Assembly: GCA_950295325.1 (NCBI GenBank)
Contig: OX485805.1
Location: 13,240,501-13,304,500 of the forward strand
Direction: 5' to 3'
DNA length: 64,000 nucleotides
Source of the DNA: Polytrichum commune
Taxonomy: Eukaryota; Streptophyta; Polytrichopsida; Polytrichales; Polytrichaceae
Position 1 is the stretch's first letter. Every line of letters starts with the position of its first letter. The position numbers and the translations under genes are program-made. Shown in pieces: positions 4,508 through 53,767 of the stretch. The notes beneath the pieces were generated by a model. The model was not told where the DNA came from and did no database searches. It worked only from the letters and a program-made list of their open reading frames with translations.

Positions 4508-4519
4508 TACATGGGATTT

Positions 4520-4650
4520 CACCAGAGCCCACCTCCTATAGGAGGCATAACACCCAATATTGCATCTCGGATCCCCAAAATCAATATAGGGTTAACAAGC
4601 TCACATTCACGCCAGTACACATAGTGCAGGCGTTATCTTATCTTATCTTA
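4520..4650 (+). mobile_element. 131-bp LINE 3' fragment (or SINE) with 12-bp target duplication
   Basis: The insert begins CACCAGAGCCCACC and ends in a (TATCT)n-type tail. It is flanked by TACATGGGATTT at 4508-4519 and 4651-4662. The same 3' sequence (CACCAGAGCCCACCTCC, then TTCACGCC..GTAC..GGGCGTT) follows the endonuclease frame of the LINE at 5475-6590, so this is either a severely 5'-truncated copy of that LINE or a SINE that borrows its 3' end. The tail differs from the (TTTTTC)n tail of the longer copy. Confidence 0.8.
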
Positions 4651-4664
4651 TACATGGGATTTTG

Positions 4665-5340: not shown

Positions 5341-5474
5341 TCTAAACTGTCTCTCGATGAAGACAAAATTGGTTAAGATCCAAGTGTTTTCCAAAGTCCA
5401 ATCGGTAACATGTTGATAGTTCTCGGTTTTCTTTCATTACTTTAGCGTATATTCTATAGATTCTTCTAAAACGA

Positions 5475-6590
5475 AGCCCACGCCTCACCCTATTGGCTAG
5501 CAAGTTGCCCAACCGCCGCGCATGACAGAGCAATTCGAAACTTACACATGTTCATAACAAAAGCACACAACAATCAAGAAGTAAGGGTGGCCCAGCATAA
5601 GTTCACGTACGTAGACAAATGGCTATCCAACGACCAAATAAACCAGAAACTCTCCAACCACTTCTGGAAAGACAACAAAATAACAGATGCCCAAATCACC
5701 CAAACCTTAAAAATCAAATATGCCCAATACATGGGTAATCACTGAAAAAACATCTTTTGGCCACTCAAATTCCAAAATCCCAACTGCACACTATGCCACC
5801 GTAACGAACGAGACACTTGGCCCCACCTCCTATCCATGTGCGAACACCCATATCTAAAAGGTTTAAGAATTGCCCGCCATAATAAAGCGGTACACCTCAT
5901 CACCCAAACACTCCAAGCCAACAAACATACCCGATTCTACACTTTAACCAATGCAGGAAACCTCAACAACAGGAATCAAGAACAAACAGTCCCAAAATGG
6001 CTCATAAAATGCACATGCACACAAACAAGTTGCCAATGCCACGCCAAATTAAGACCCGATATCCTAAACATACTAGGCGCCCCAAACCACACACCCACGC
6101 CTTTATTACCATCACCCTCCCATACAATACAATTCATTGAATTCACATATTGTTATGACAGATTCCCCGAACAAGCACTCATACACAAACACACCAAATA
6201 CGACCCACTAATTAATAACATACAAACTCAAGGTTGGAAAACGAACCCCCTAATCACCATCATAGCAAGCGTTTGGGGAGCCATACACGAACAATCCGTC
6301 GACAAATTAACCAAACTTAAACTCCCAAAATCCAACATTAAAACACTCATGAAAAATATACACCATAATGCCATTAAATATCTTACCTACCTAGTCCTTA
6401 ACAAAAGAAAACTAGAAAACAAAGAAGCTACTGTCACACTCCCTTAAACAAAGGGATAAATACGTAACACCAGAGCCCACCTCCCAGAGAGGCATAAAAC
6501 CTCATACTACAACACGGTCCGCTGTGTTAAGTGTTTAAATAATGGGTTCACATTCACGCCGGTACCATGTACGGGCGTTTCTTTTTCTTT
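5475..6590 (+). mobile_element. 5'-truncated LINE with restriction-like endonuclease, 14-bp duplication
   Basis: The 1116-bp insert is flanked by TTCTTCTAAAACGA at 5461-5474 and again at 6591-6604. It starts inside the ORF, runs through the C-terminal coding region, a short 3' UTR starting around CACCAGAGCCC, and a tail of TTTTTC units. 5' truncation, a long duplication and a short-repeat tail are the marks of target-primed reverse transcription. The insertion landed in a MITE-1 copy. Confidence 0.88.
5476..6447 (+). pseudogene. LINE ORF C-terminus: CCHC zinc finger plus restriction-like endonuclease
   Basis: One frame of 324 codons is open from the insertion edge to the stop, apart from a single in-frame TGA at 5743-5745. 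Around 5790-5845 it encodes a CX2CX9HX4C finger (CTLCHRNERDTWPHLLSMC), followed by a basic RHNKAV tract. A CxC..CxC cluster precedes RPDILNILG (about 6050-6080), and IEFTYCYDRF follows near 6135-6165, with a Lys pair (HKHTKY) after it. The PD, then E, then K order fits a PD-(D/E)XK nuclease of the kind found in R2, NeSL and Dualen-type non-LTR elements, which nicks the target to prime reverse transcription. The reverse transcriptase core itself is missing. Assignment to a named clade is uncertain. I do not think this is a host gene because of the duplication, the tail and two further decayed copies in the window. Confidence 0.8.
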
Positions 6591-6700
6591 TTCTTCTAAA
6601 ACGATCAGTGATAATGGTCTAAGGTCTTGATCTTGAACCAGTTATTTCTCAAACTCAACCGGCCAACAAGTAACTAGAAGTTGGAACTCTCCGATTGTAT

Positions 6701-17423: not shown

Positions 17424-18551
17424 TCAAGGAGGTTGACGGCCTTTAGGGCTGTCTATTGGACATTTTGTTGATATGTGATGAGAAATATTACTACCTTTGT
17501 TGAGTAATTTAGGGTCCAAGTAAACAACGACAACTGTAATGTCATCATGGAAATGTCGTCGGATCCCCCGCTCAATTCTCTTCAGATCTGTGTAACGCAT
17601 CTCCCGCTTCTTGGCAGCTTCTTGAAGTGCAGCTTTGATGAGCCGTCTAGCAATCCCAGCACGGGGATTGTGGTGCACAATTTCTACCGCCTCCTTGTTG
17701 CTCAAGTGCTCCCAAAGGCCATCAGAAGCAAAAATGATGAACTCATCTTGTGGGCCAAGGTTTATGACATTGCATTCTGGCTCAGCACTCATAACAGGTT
17801 TTTTGAGAGGCTCTGAAAGCCGGAACCGGGCAATCAAAGGCTCTCTATTGTACTCAGCCTTCTTCAAGTAGAAATCCCCAATCGAGCGAGAAACTTGAAT
17901 TAGGCCCTTCACCCGCCACACTCCATGTTTCAGCACCACAATTTGTGGATCATCTTCGTGTTCTGCAAAAAGTTCATCCCGGACTGCCTCAATACTGGCA
18001 TTATGCTCTTTCGATACTTGACGGGCAACAACAGTGCCAGTGTCACTGGAATAACTACCGAGCACTGCCCGAGAGTCTCCAAGACTGGCAATATACAACT
18101 TGGAAGAACAGACCACTCCCACCAGGCAACAGGAACCAACAGCCGCAATCTGTGGCTTCATAGCCCATGCCTTTCGAACAATGTCAAAAAATTTGTCCTC
18201 TGTGTCTTTGAAACCTTTGCAGAGGACATCACTGCTCATACTTCCTTGCTTTCCCGCATATTTTTGTACATGAATGTACATACAGTCATTAATGCAACGA
18301 GATGCTTCAGGACCTCCATGTCCATCGTAAATGCCAACAAATGTCCCAAAAGGACCAGTCTCCACTTGGCTCATATCCTCCAAAATCCCATTGGCCTGCA
18401 CGACTGCATAAGAGAACTCCCCTACAGCATGTGGGCACAGATCCTTGTACCACAGTAATGGATCTTGACGATCTGTCCCATCTTGTCCCTGACTGTGTTT
18501 CCTTGCAGGACGCCAACATGACATCACCATATTTATGACCCAATCGAACAT
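17424..18551 (-). CDS. Protein phosphatase 2C, clade D type
   Basis: A 375-residue Mg/Mn-dependent Ser/Thr phosphatase. After a short N-terminus with a CWRP motif (12-15) come LLWYKD (32-37), YDGHGGPE (75-82, metal ligand Asp76), LGDSRAVLG (157-165), [16 protein letters not shown] (211-226), FASDGLWE (274-281, metal ligand Asp277), the clade-typical [13 protein letters not shown] (308-320) and [13 protein letters not shown] (334-346, metal ligands at Asp336/337). All catalytic motifs are present and the length fits plant clade D members. In Arabidopsis this clade dephosphorylates the C-terminal Thr of plasma-membrane H+-ATPases and is inhibited by SAUR proteins, giving control of cell expansion; the same role here is inference. 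The CDS is one uninterrupted exon, which is unusual since flowering-plant members normally have introns in the coding region. The start is chosen because [13 protein letters not shown] aligns with the family N-terminus. Confidence 0.95.
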
Positions 18552-18558
18552 CTCTCAT
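18307..18558 (-). promoter_or_regulatory. Upstream ATG overlapping the PP2C start, other frame
   Basis: An ATG lies seven bases before the PP2C start (ATGAGAGATG) and opens an 83-codon frame that overlaps the CDS out of frame. It has no protein-family features. If the leader includes it, scanning ribosomes could start there and lower phosphatase output; leaky scanning would still reach the main start. Confidence 0.35.
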
Positions 18559-31489: not shown

Positions 31490-31625
31490 CCATAGACAAA
31501 AACCCACCCACCGCAAGGCATGCACTAAACCCCACCTTACACCAAGTGGATTCTTGAGCAGGGTAGGGCCCAAGGGCTCAAATTCACGTCGGATTGTCCA
31601 ACATTGGTTACTCTTTTCTTTTTTG
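31490..31625 (+). mobile_element. LINE/SINE 3' end, tail family T2
   Basis: Contains ATTCTTGAGCAGGGTAGGGC, then CAAATTCACGTCGGATTG and a (TTTTC)-type pyrimidine tail. The same block occurs at 35503 and 46384. The TTCACGTCGG core resembles the 3' end of the LINE at 5475, which suggests a related 3' recognition sequence. Confidence 0.6.
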
Positions 31626-39829: not shown

Positions 39830-40385
39830 ATGTAGGGGTGGCAAATACCAAGGGTTTGCAAGGCAATAAACATTACTCTTTTAAACCATACATATTGTGT
39901 GTCATAGGACATCCATATAACCACCCCCCACCAGAAACCCCTACAACAAGAATCACCATACAATTTGTAGAATTTACATACTGCAATGATAGATTTACCA
40001 TAAAAACCCTTGATAGGAAAACCACAAAATACCAACCGCTCATCAATAACATTATCTCAAGGGGATGGAATGTAGCCCCACTACACACATCCCATCAATG
40101 AGAAACTTGGAAACAACACTTAAACTCCCTCTCATAAAAATAAAAAACACATTTCAACAAATTAACATTATCGCCACACAATATGCACACTCAATACTCG
40201 TCCATAAACGAAGACTAGAGAACAAACAATCAGTCACAGACCTCCATGACTCGGCATAACTAAATAACCTATCTCATAACCCGGTACACCTTACCATATA
40301 AAATAATGCCACCTCACTGGAAAACACCAATAAACAACTACCACACACTACCGGTTACCGGTTAACCGGTTAACCGGTTATTTGC
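39830..40385 (+). mobile_element. LINE copy 2: endonuclease region and tail, decayed
   Basis: The frame reads KPYILCVIGHPYN, then IQFVEFTYCNDRF and a Lys-rich stretch ending KYQPLINNI..GW, followed after an internal deletion and frameshift by the C-terminal block NTFQQINIIATQYAHSIL and HKRRLENKQ. This matches the endonuclease of the LINE at 5476-6447. The first acidic residue of the PD motif is replaced by Tyr. The 3' end has a run of AACCGGTT units (about 40350-40382), a possible microsatellite tail. Boundaries and duplication were not found. Confidence 0.7.
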
Positions 40386-51426: not shown

Positions 51427-51635
51427 TATATTTCTTTAGTTTGTGTTGGATGGTTGTCTCTAGGAAATTGTCATCGAAGTATGTGAACTCAATAAAACGT
51501 AGGAACGTTGCATTGAAGTGGTGCATGGGTGGGGAGGCCCTCAAGGGGGATGTACGGGCATTGGATATTGTCGTTCCGTGGGAGGATCCATTTTGGAACC
51601 TTGTGTTCAATGAGGGTGGAATGGGTGGTGCTTCC

Positions 51636-52918
51636 GAGGGCATAAAATTGACACCCTGGGGGGTGTATTTTGCTTCCTAGAGTGTCCTAGGACACCCAAA
51701 TCTCAAACAGGGTGTCCCCGAGGACACCCAAAAATCCTACAAGGGTGTCCTTTTTACACCCAAAAAAAATTCGGGGTGTCCCCTGTACTTGTAGGGCCTA
51801 TCAGTGTATATGTTTGACAAAGTTTTTGCAAGTTTTTCTTTTTTGACACGCAAAAACTTGCACCAAAAAAAAATGCACATCAATTGACACGCACATTCTA
51901 GAAAGTGACACGTACTGTGACTTGTGAAGAAAAAAATCACACGTCAATTGACACACTAGAAATATAAGGAGTTTGGTGCGGATACCAAATTTGTGGCACA
52001 ATTTTTGGACATTTCTAAGAGGTGGTGAGATCCATTTTCAAGACTCTACAGGAGTGGTGCATTCACATATATTGCATTATGCACCATTGCCTCATGCAAT
52101 TGAGTTTGGTGGTGATGGTACCCTCCATGGGTGCAAGGTGATTGCACAGGCCTATGTGGTTAAGGTGATAGAATCATTGCAGCAACGATTTCCTGATTTG
52201 AAGCTCTTCAATGCAACTAAGCTATTTAGCCCTGTCTGTTTTTCAACAGACTTGACACTTCTTCATCGAAATGCTCGTTTATGGCTTCAGAGTTTCATTG
52301 ACCACTTCTGCACTAATGGAGGGAATCTTTTTGATGAGCGTGGTTTAAAATCAGAGCTTCGAGGTTTTTTGGATACACTTCATATTTCATGTGGTGGTCT
52401 TAAAATGCACCAAGCTTGGATGGTTTATTCTTCCAATTTGGACTATGTTGGAAGATATCCTCATATGACAAAGTTGTGGCAAGCTGTTCTTGTAATTCCT
52501 GCTAGTACAACTTCTTGTGAGAGAGGATTTTCTACTCAAAATCATATTAAATCTACTTTACGGTGTAGTTTGGTATTAGAGACTTTGGAAGCACAAATGA
52601 GAGTTGCAATGGCAAAAATCCCCATAGAGGCCATTGACTTTGAACAAGTATGGGTAAAGTGGTGTGCTATGAAAGGCCGCCGCTTGTAGGTTTGATTTGC
52701 ATTGCAAGTTATGATATGTAGTGATTTTTTTGATTTTTAATTGAAATTTTGAAATGATATTATATATTTTTCAAAATTGTACCTATTTTGACCCAAAAAA
52801 AAATTAAGAGAAATTTATGAGGACACCCAAAAATTGGAGCAGGGTGTCCTTGGGACACCCAAAATTTGGGACAGGGTGTCCCCTGGAAATTTGGCTAGGG
52901 TGTCAAATTTATGGCCTG
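51636..52918 (+). mobile_element. 1283-bp hAT element, internally deleted
   Basis: Left end GAGGGCATAAAATTGACACC and right end the reverse complement of CAGGCCATAAATTTGACACC. The 8-bp duplication GTGCTTCC lies at 51628-51635 and 52919-52926. GGGTGTCC or GGACACCC repeats fill both subterminal regions (about five left, five right). It keeps only the C-terminal part of the transposase gene, so it probably arose by internal deletion. Confidence 0.93.
51973..52689 (+). CDS. hAT transposase, C-terminal part
   Basis: A 238-codon frame without stops. From about residue 40 it resembles the C-terminal half of hAT transposases of the zinc-finger-862 type: SLQQRFPDLKLFNATKLFSP, then LRGFLDTLHISCGG, AWMVYSSNLDYVGRYPHMTK, and the dimerisation tract LVIPASTTSCERGFSTQNHIKS (quoted parts only), followed by LETLEAQMRVAM. 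The BED/TTF finger and the DDE core's first acidic residues are missing, so it cannot cut DNA alone, though the dimerisation domain is intact. The first 35-40 residues are probably not native. Its open frame fits a young element rather than host use. Confidence 0.8.
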   Translation: MVRIPNLWHNFWTFLRGGEIHFQDSTGVVHSHILHYAPLPHAIEFGGDGTLHGCKVIAQAYVVKVIESLQQRFPDLKLFNATKLFSPVCFSTDLTLLHRNARLWLQSFIDHFCTNGGNLFDERGLKSELRGFLDTLHISCGGLKMHQAWMVYSSNLDYVGRYPHMTKLWQAVLVIPASTTSCERGFSTQNHIKSTLRCSLVLETLEAQMRVAMAKIPIEAIDFEQVWVKWCAMKGRRL

Positions 52919-53110
52919 GTGCTTCCTTTAGTGATACATTTCAAGTTGGTTAGGTGATGAGTGAGGAGCATTTATGTAGTGTGTTGTGGAGCATTGTTGT
53001 GTATGCTCAAACTTAGTGTCTTGGTGATTGGGTGTTTATATGAGACAAGGAGATGGGGCCATGTACTCACATAGTTTGGGCATGGTTGAAGGGGCAACAT
53101 ATAGAGAAAA

Positions 53111-53767
53111 TTGCATTGGGCTATTACATATGTTTCATGTCCATTTGAATTTGAGGGTTTGGGGGGTTTGGGAGGGATATATTACGGATTGTGCCCACAA
53201 GGTGCGAGGGAGGAAGATGGTATGAGCTTTTGTATGATGGGTGTTTTACGAGGATATATTATTCAATTCATTGATTGAAGACCATCGATAGGGGTGCACT
53301 CTAATTGGATATAGGCATACGAGTGCACATATTGAACGATGTCGAGTATGTTGCCGACTACGTGTTATTGTTTCATTGTAAATCTTCCTATGTTCTATAG
53401 TTCTTTGGCATTTAAATTAATATTGTCAAGATGTGCATTATGTGAGTGAGTGCCAAGTTATGTCTAAGAATAAGTGCCTACAATGAGTTTGCGAGTGCAA
53501 ATAAATTATTCAACCTTGACTCTTAGTTGCATGAACCTTTTTTTCTTTTTCTTTCCTTTGTGTAGAGTTGTTGGAGGGGTGGATGCATGTTGATCAATAG
53601 GATCAAAGTGCCAACTATAGTTTGAAGTATTATAAATCATATTAAGAATTCAATGTTGAAATCGGTGCAAATTAAGATATAGTATTATCTATACGTAGTG
53701 GAAACCTTCCAATCCAAGCCAGTGTCAGTGTGTAGTTAAGGGTTGAAGGTCAAGACTTTGTGACAAC
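53111..53767. other. Gene-free stretch
   Basis: The first 100-200 bp may be more of LINE copy 3 but are too decayed to align. No gene. Confidence 0.4.

Follow-up and report, generated by a model that had tools for sequence, protein, structure and literature searches.

A decayed LINE copy in the moss Polytrichum commune and its probable Dualen-like relatives with two endonucleases

The insertion and other family pieces in the window

The window analysed here is a stretch of 64,000 nucleotides from Polytrichum commune, and it sits on contig C3 of a genome searched as 408 Mb in 64 contigs. A LINE copy with part of a second open reading frame (ORF2) lies on its forward strand, along with smaller pieces of the same family. 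The features, including target-site duplications (TSDs) and motifs of a putative restriction-like endonuclease (RLE), are given below; rows are those of a 13-row alignment.

4520-4650, +: insertion of 3' UTR and tail only, 131 bp, with a 12-bp TSD at 4508-4519 and 4651-4662
5461-5474, +: left TSD copy, sequence TTCTTCTAAAACGA
5475-6590, +: LINE copy, 5'-truncated and decayed, between 14-bp TSDs
5476-6447, +: C-terminal part of ORF2, 324 codons including the final stop at 6445-6447
5785-5841, +: CCHC zinc finger CX2CX9HX4C; Cys and His invariant in 13/13 rows; the R2 finger aligns
6010-6039, +: CxC...CxC cluster, an insertion relative to R2 (gapped there); in 10/10 long loci
6052-6060, +: RPD motif of the putative RLE; Asp in 12/13 rows, Asn in L019; the R2 PD aligns
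6136-6150, +: IEFTY, presumed acidic active-site strand of the RLE; 13/13 rows
6187-6201, +: KHTKY (KxxKY) of the putative RLE; both Lys and the Tyr in 13/13 rows; R2 has the same motif
6473-6586, +: structured 3' UTR, a closing stem and hairpins, followed by the first part of the T/C tail; scores 116 bits with model R1 (this row was among those used to build it)
6591-6604, +: right TSD copy, TTCTTCTAAAACGA repeated
31500-31616, +: degenerate 3' UTR copy; 26.5 bits, E 0.00037, model R1
39871-40244, +: degenerate RLE remnant; 51% identity over 73 aa, 39% over 44 aa
46367-46479, +: degenerate 3' UTR copy; 36 bits, E 2.7e-6, model R1
51428-51568, -: degenerate RLE remnant; 36% over 47 aa, E 0.002
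52930-53212, -: degenerate finger-region remnant; 37% over 49 aa, E 2.3e-4 (against full ORF2, E 0.004)

The stretch 5475-6590 is a single insertion with exact ends, and the two 14-bp TSDs on either side confirm to the base the borders named in a preliminary description of this DNA. Of 4,980 pairs of window stretches drawn at random, two had 12 bp in common and none had 14 bp. The 3' terminus is a T/C tail and the 5' part is missing, which is how target-primed reverse transcription leaves LINE copies. The frame at 5476-6447 is 74% identical to residues 2050-2372 of P0004, and all the motifs previously described in it are present, namely the CX2CX9HX4C finger CTLCHRNERDTWPHLLSMC, the CxC cluster CTCTQTSCQC, the RPD within LRPDI, IEFTYCYDRF and the lysine pair of KHTKY. 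It contains one internal TGA only (5743-5745). As a further sign of decay, it reads VWGAIH, whereas the 12 other rows all read VRGAIH. The window copy is a decayed, dead fragment; a genomic copy elsewhere (L002) has 94% protein identity to its 233-aa part.

The two reverse-strand remnants (51428-51568 and 52930-53212) may be one copy. Together with the remnant at 39871-40244 and the additional 3' ends, they are consistent with the earlier count of three copies in 64 kb. The 131-bp insertion could be read as a SINE, and a severely 5'-truncated LINE fits equally well. Two unrelated open frames were also noticed by eye: one of 376 aa at 17424-18554 (-) resembles an exon of a plant PP2C phosphatase, and one of 245 aa at 51952-52689 (+), which adjoins the LINE remnants, resembles the end of a hAT transposase.

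The genome had been called plant-like, and the LEAFY gene identifies the host as a land plant, a moss. The LEAFY DNA-binding domain, in two exon pieces (L032), matches the PDB entries 4bhk (257 bits), 9g19 and 9fwy (225), 2vy1 (208) and 8s8q (124), of which we take 4bhk to be the Physcomitrium and 2vy1 the Arabidopsis LEAFY protein. The Asp and Cys in MRDYVHCYA and GAWCQACY are presumably moss-type residues. A set of seven chromosomes might suit Polytrichaceae. The SAM domain of LEAFY has four matches in the genome (L030-L033), one of them weak.

The supposition that the family is common in this genome held as well. All 150 scored matches to the 233-aa query, out of 6,215 first-look candidates, have E values of 1.5e-115 or less, and the copy number is thus to be read as a lower bound of at least 150. 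Each of the seven contigs C1 to C7, which are 42 to 78 Mb long (C6 at least 43 Mb) and carry nearly the whole assembly, has scored copies, and the copies vary in how far they have decayed. This distribution and the varied decay leave practically no room for contamination from an algal or other eukaryotic genome, a reading that would draw on the reports of Dualen elements from algae and cryptophytes otherwise.

Full-length relatives and their coding capacity

Ten long loci (L011-L020) were picked for long open frames and are, hence, no random sample; E names denote joined pieces (E11 contains L011, and so on). Between their TSDs, the elements measure 12,861 bp (E12), 12,271 bp (E13), 11,918 bp (E11) and 11,883 bp (E15). 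Upstream of ORF2 is a frame for ORF1 that measures 1,302 to 1,478 aa. In ORF2, a leader is followed by 2A-like peptides (one or two) and then, in this order, by an APE nuclease, a reverse transcriptase (RT), a PCIF1-like stretch, RNase H, the CCHC finger and the RLE; its longest open version has 2,422 aa (L012). No Pfam match to ORF1 was obtained at E up to 0.5 in any of the three scanned, and the best E for two shorter ORF1 pieces was 0.044. In seven ORF2 pieces, RVT_1, RNase H (PF00075) and PCIF1_WW were each found 7/7 times, Exo_endo_phos_2 in five and Exo_endo_phos in four. The PCIF1_WW-like stretch lies between the RT and RNase H (residues 1684-1770 of L012:1833-9098 (+), and the same place in the other ORF2 pieces); its best E is 3.5e-7, under the curated cut-off in four tabulated pieces. 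What we take to be the methyltransferase motif, NPPF, seems absent from this stretch, which reads GLAFP.

Each of the ten long loci contains YADD, IEFTY, KxxKY, GxRGAIH, the CCHC finger and the CxC cluster, while [RK]PD is present in nine and the strict RT pattern DFRNAFxSI in five. Stops or frame changes split several of these loci; therefore, the motif absences include unread parts. The RT of L012 is without about 50 residues after YADD (399 as against 448 to 451 aa), with the frame still open.

The preliminary description had named a LINE with a restriction-like endonuclease. An RLE is indeed indicated; an RLE-only element is not, as the full-length copies have an N-terminal APE in the same frame. 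Exo_endo_phos and Exo_endo_phos_2 are found N-terminally and in frame with the RT in P0002, P0004 and L013, and in the first two the RLE shares this open frame too. The recovered full-length copies are likewise not of a kind with APE only, since homology to both nucleases was found. The presence of APE and RLE in one frame argues for a dual-nuclease, Dualen-like element. It is extremely unlikely that this is an RLE-only LINE of the R2, NeSL or Hero kind in a plant, with the APE match coming from a neighbour or a misreading, even though the RT and the C-terminus each resemble R2. Apart from the shared frame and the Pfam matches (the ORF2 pieces L019 and L020 start downstream of the APE region, judged by the RT start), the motifs WN, QETK, GDFN and SDH occur in 7, 9, 8 and 9 of the ten long loci, and the dN/dS of the APE is 0.11-0.17 (six usable of seven pairs, the seventh having 2 synonymous sites). 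For the long copies that include the APE part, the RLE-only reading is refuted.

The remaining dN/dS values are similarly low. They are 0.07-0.13 for the CCHC-RLE region (7/7 pairs), 0.03-0.07 for RNase H, 0.08-0.15 for the PCIF1-like stretch and 0.14-0.21 for the interval from the RT to that stretch (seven pairs), and 0.03-0.09 for the RT, where dS is saturated in three of the seven pairs. The seven pairs are not independent. Judged by these ratios, both the APE and the putative RLE are under purifying selection.

A six-frame search for the 2A-like motif GD[IV]xxNPGP gave 16 sites, with at least one in all ten long loci and two in six of them. The paired sites are exactly 154 codons apart in one frame in L015, L016, L018 and L019, 267 codons apart in L017, and 436 nt apart in different frames in L011. 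In E16, both sites fall in the ORF2 frame upstream of the APE, at about residues 194-201 and 348-355. Sites paired at 154 codons could release an extra short protein. The StopGo motif is given as (D/G/C/N)(V/I)ExNPGP in a 2026 survey that found nothing to show its natural use in plant viruses (PMC12846837). This exact form is present in L012, L014, L017 and L020, and H, Q or K stands for E in the other six loci. It is also reported that 2A occurs in LINEs of trypanosomes and other species (PMC4981915). The 2A-bearing LINEs of trypanosomes and animals resemble the moss element in that their polyprotein includes a D(V/I)ExNPGP-like motif; going by titles, those known elsewhere are APE-type elements of multicellular organisms, and L1Tc, unlike the moss element with its APE and RLE (PMC4981915).

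The C-terminal domain, the reverse transcriptase and known LINE groups

Pfam gave no family for the 233-aa fragment of the window. The matches obtained with some of the 13 rows (DUF2043 in 5/13, Pro-kuma_activ in two, S_locus_glycop in two, RNA_binding in one and DHC in one) had a best E of 0.00071 and were judged to be due to chance. In a plain PDB search, the fragment matched R2 weakly at E 0.85, behind a ribosomal-type protein, and the 13-copy profile at E 1.6, behind three kinase chains. With the full ORF2, R2 segments matching the finger and KxxKY...GxRGxxH came up in their proper order, each insignificant alone (5.3, 4.4, 4.3, -0.7 and -1.0 bits). As these plain searches were weak, the RLE assignment rests on a profile-profile match and its shuffle control. 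The profile of 13 genomic copies matched that of R2 proteins of known structure at E 6.9e-7 (probability 91.9, 154 columns, 24% identity), spanning the finger, RHNK, PD, KxxKY and GxRGxxH (the GARG motif). The score was 49.4, as against 25.0 at most when the columns of the R2 profile were shuffled (200 times) and 12.8 with that profile reversed. The R2 profile consists of three sequences, with C-termini taken from printed PDB alignments; one covers the first part only, and the other two have 8-9 unread residues as X.

It is thus supported, at the level of sequence profiles, that the C-terminal domain is an RLE homologous to R2. The earlier reading of a PD-(D/E)XK nuclease stands as far as this homology and the low dN/dS go. 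The fold itself we infer, because both AlphaFold predictions of the window RLE, made with an alignment of the window's own remnants, were of low confidence (mean pLDDT 40.7 and 43.4).

R2 is the closest PDB match of the ORF2 RT (1.3e-39), and LINE-1 ORF2p is absent from the matches at E<0.01; a profile of seven RTs is also closest to R2. As a control, L038, an L1-type RT from the same moss genome, is closest to LINE-1 ORF2p (2e-39), with R2 at 4e-19. A tree of 23 rows was built from 10 element RTs, 8 moss L1-type RTs, 3 R2 sequences and 2 group II introns; eight of the nine fetched moss L1-type RTs were used (L046 was left out), and among them L038 alone was itself compared with the PDB. The element, R2 and L1 stay separate in this tree, which has long branches, including that of L038, and no Dualen, NeSL, CRE or Hero rows. 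An RT phylogeny had been proposed earlier as a check on the RLE claim, and in it the 10 element RTs stand apart from the 8 moss L1-type RTs and nearest to R2, joined at 90/89, which is below the star threshold. By these comparisons, the element RT is R2-like and not L1-like. Late capture of an RLE-like domain by a plant L1 would explain the L1-like N-terminal APE, and plant L1 elements are reported to have RNase H as well (PMC4640811); such an origin is very unlikely, as the element RT has no LINE-1 ORF2p match at E<0.01, whereas the moss L1 control reaches 2e-39, and the tree parts the two sets of RTs.

Plant L1 and RTE elements and the moss element all have an N-terminal APE and an RT, and many of the plant ones have RNase H; to our knowledge, none carries an RLE. 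The moss element is not placed in the L1 clade, since its RT is not L1-type, with the moss L1-type RTs branching apart, and the APE is not its sole endonuclease, given the R2 profile homology of the RLE. With R2 (PDB 9nl2, 9nl3, 9dou and 8gh6), it shares the succession of RT, CCHC finger, RHNK and RLE motifs. The R2 clade inserts at one site in 28S rDNA; the moss element differs by having no visible single target site, and also by its CxC cluster and a longer spacing from PD to the acidic residue. The R2 group is described as having one ORF, with the RT and then the RLE (PMC3636483), to which the moss element adds an APE, RNase H and a long ORF1. It is, therefore, not placed in the R2 clade either, as an APE is present, ORF1 is long and the TSDs of six copies all differ.

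Dualen, also known as Rand I, is described as encoding two nucleases, an APE and a PD-(D/E)XK-like one (PMC3636483). It is treated as a separate group, and RNase H is noted in Dualen/RandI (PMC4640811). The moss element shares with it the APE upstream of the RT, the RLE and RNase H. Also shared is a short repeat at the 3' tail, alike in kind and not in repeat unit, the RandI tails being (ATT)n and (CTATTT)n (PMC3747384). SINEX elements have 3' ends in common with RandI (PMC3747384), and this sharing of 3' ends with short elements is a further point of likeness. The moss host sets the element apart from Dualen/RandI, which is known here by descriptions and not by sequences, and the 2A-like peptides and the PCIF1-like stretch may do so too. 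The window copy is very probably a truncated copy of a Dualen-like (APE and RLE) non-LTR retrotransposon family in moss; the family is best filed as such by domain content, the RT tree containing no Dualen rows.

As for hosts, RandI is listed for green algae, and L1 and RTE for flowering plants (PMC3747384). Dualen is also reported in relatives of Chlamydomonas (PMC8226300) and LINE/Dualen in cryptophytes (PMC12747079). A 2022 review assigns the LINEs of land plants to L1 and RTE, naming no others (PMC9033089), and two LINEs are mentioned for Physcomitrium (PMC7466625). In the literature, so far as the sources were accessible, no land plant was found for which a Dualen or RLE LINE is reported; Repbase may catalogue one.

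Mobility, proposed mechanism and significance

E11 and E16, on different contigs, are 99.36% identical over 11,886 bp, which indicates recent movement; the identity of E15 to these two is 98.6% and 98.8%. The 3' UTRs of 12 sequences, including the 131-bp copy, fit a common fold of 28 pairs, 11 of them with two-sided changes that preserve pairing; some of the 12 are near-identical, and the independent covariation events are, therefore, fewer. The tails are T/C-rich repeats, for example TTTTC, with TTATC in the 131-bp copy. Six of the 20 copies examined have TSDs of 12-14 bp (the window copy, E11, E12, E13, E15 and L006); as all six TSDs differ, there is no single target site. In the other 14, a convincing TSD was absent, partly since loci end inside the element, and the 3' motif was unfound in five; E16 has a 25-bp match within tandem-repeat DNA, and L009 has a possible 10-bp TSD.

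In two cases, additional nucleotides separate the TSD from the 5' start that copies of the element have in common. At L034:243-302 there are 60 nt, about 35 of them matching another genomic repeat (at least 39 other places scored of 581 candidates, with six contexts checked), and E15 has 53 nt of a different sequence. They may reflect template switching or a captured leader. Rfam gave no match at two 5'-flank loci, and no relatives of the element were found in the viral contigs scanned.

The following cycle is proposed. The transcript would be translated into ORF1p and an ORF2 polyprotein, which a 2A peptide would separate from its leader without a protease. ORF2p would bind the 3' UTR hairpins, and a nuclease would nick the bottom strand. 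The T/C-rich tail would then pair with the DNA at the nick, and the RT would copy the RNA in place, that is, by target-primed reverse transcription. RNase H would remove the template, and the second strand would be cut 12-14 bp away. Most likely, the two nucleases share the two cuts, or the RLE and the finger position the DNA while the APE nicks it. It is possible, and in our judgement rather unlikely, that the RLE is a nuclease relic, such that the APE makes all the cuts and the C-terminal domain only binds DNA or RNA. TSDs of 12-14 bp, as found here, are in the usual range for APE LINEs, and the differing insertion sites of the six copies would suit such a relic as well. Against it, 12 or 13 of the 13 rows retain PD, E and Lys, which are strongly constrained, even if a constraint on binding only could look alike.

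The position of Dualen has been read to mean that APE LINEs arose when an APE replaced the RLE (PMC4640811). We are inclined, with some reserve, to see in the moss elements a major, recently mobile LINE family of a land plant that would combine two unrelated nucleases with an R2-like RT, a PCIF1-like domain acquired by capture and 2A processing during translation. Dualen would then have survived in, or re-entered, the land-plant lineage and been missed there because surveys of plant LINEs look for L1 and RTE. The moss family would extend the group with APE and RLE beyond the published green algae and cryptophytes, and the element may also supply an instance of a natural 2A peptide from a plant genome. 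As a recent, high-copy family, it would make the moss a tractable host for asking which nuclease makes which cut.
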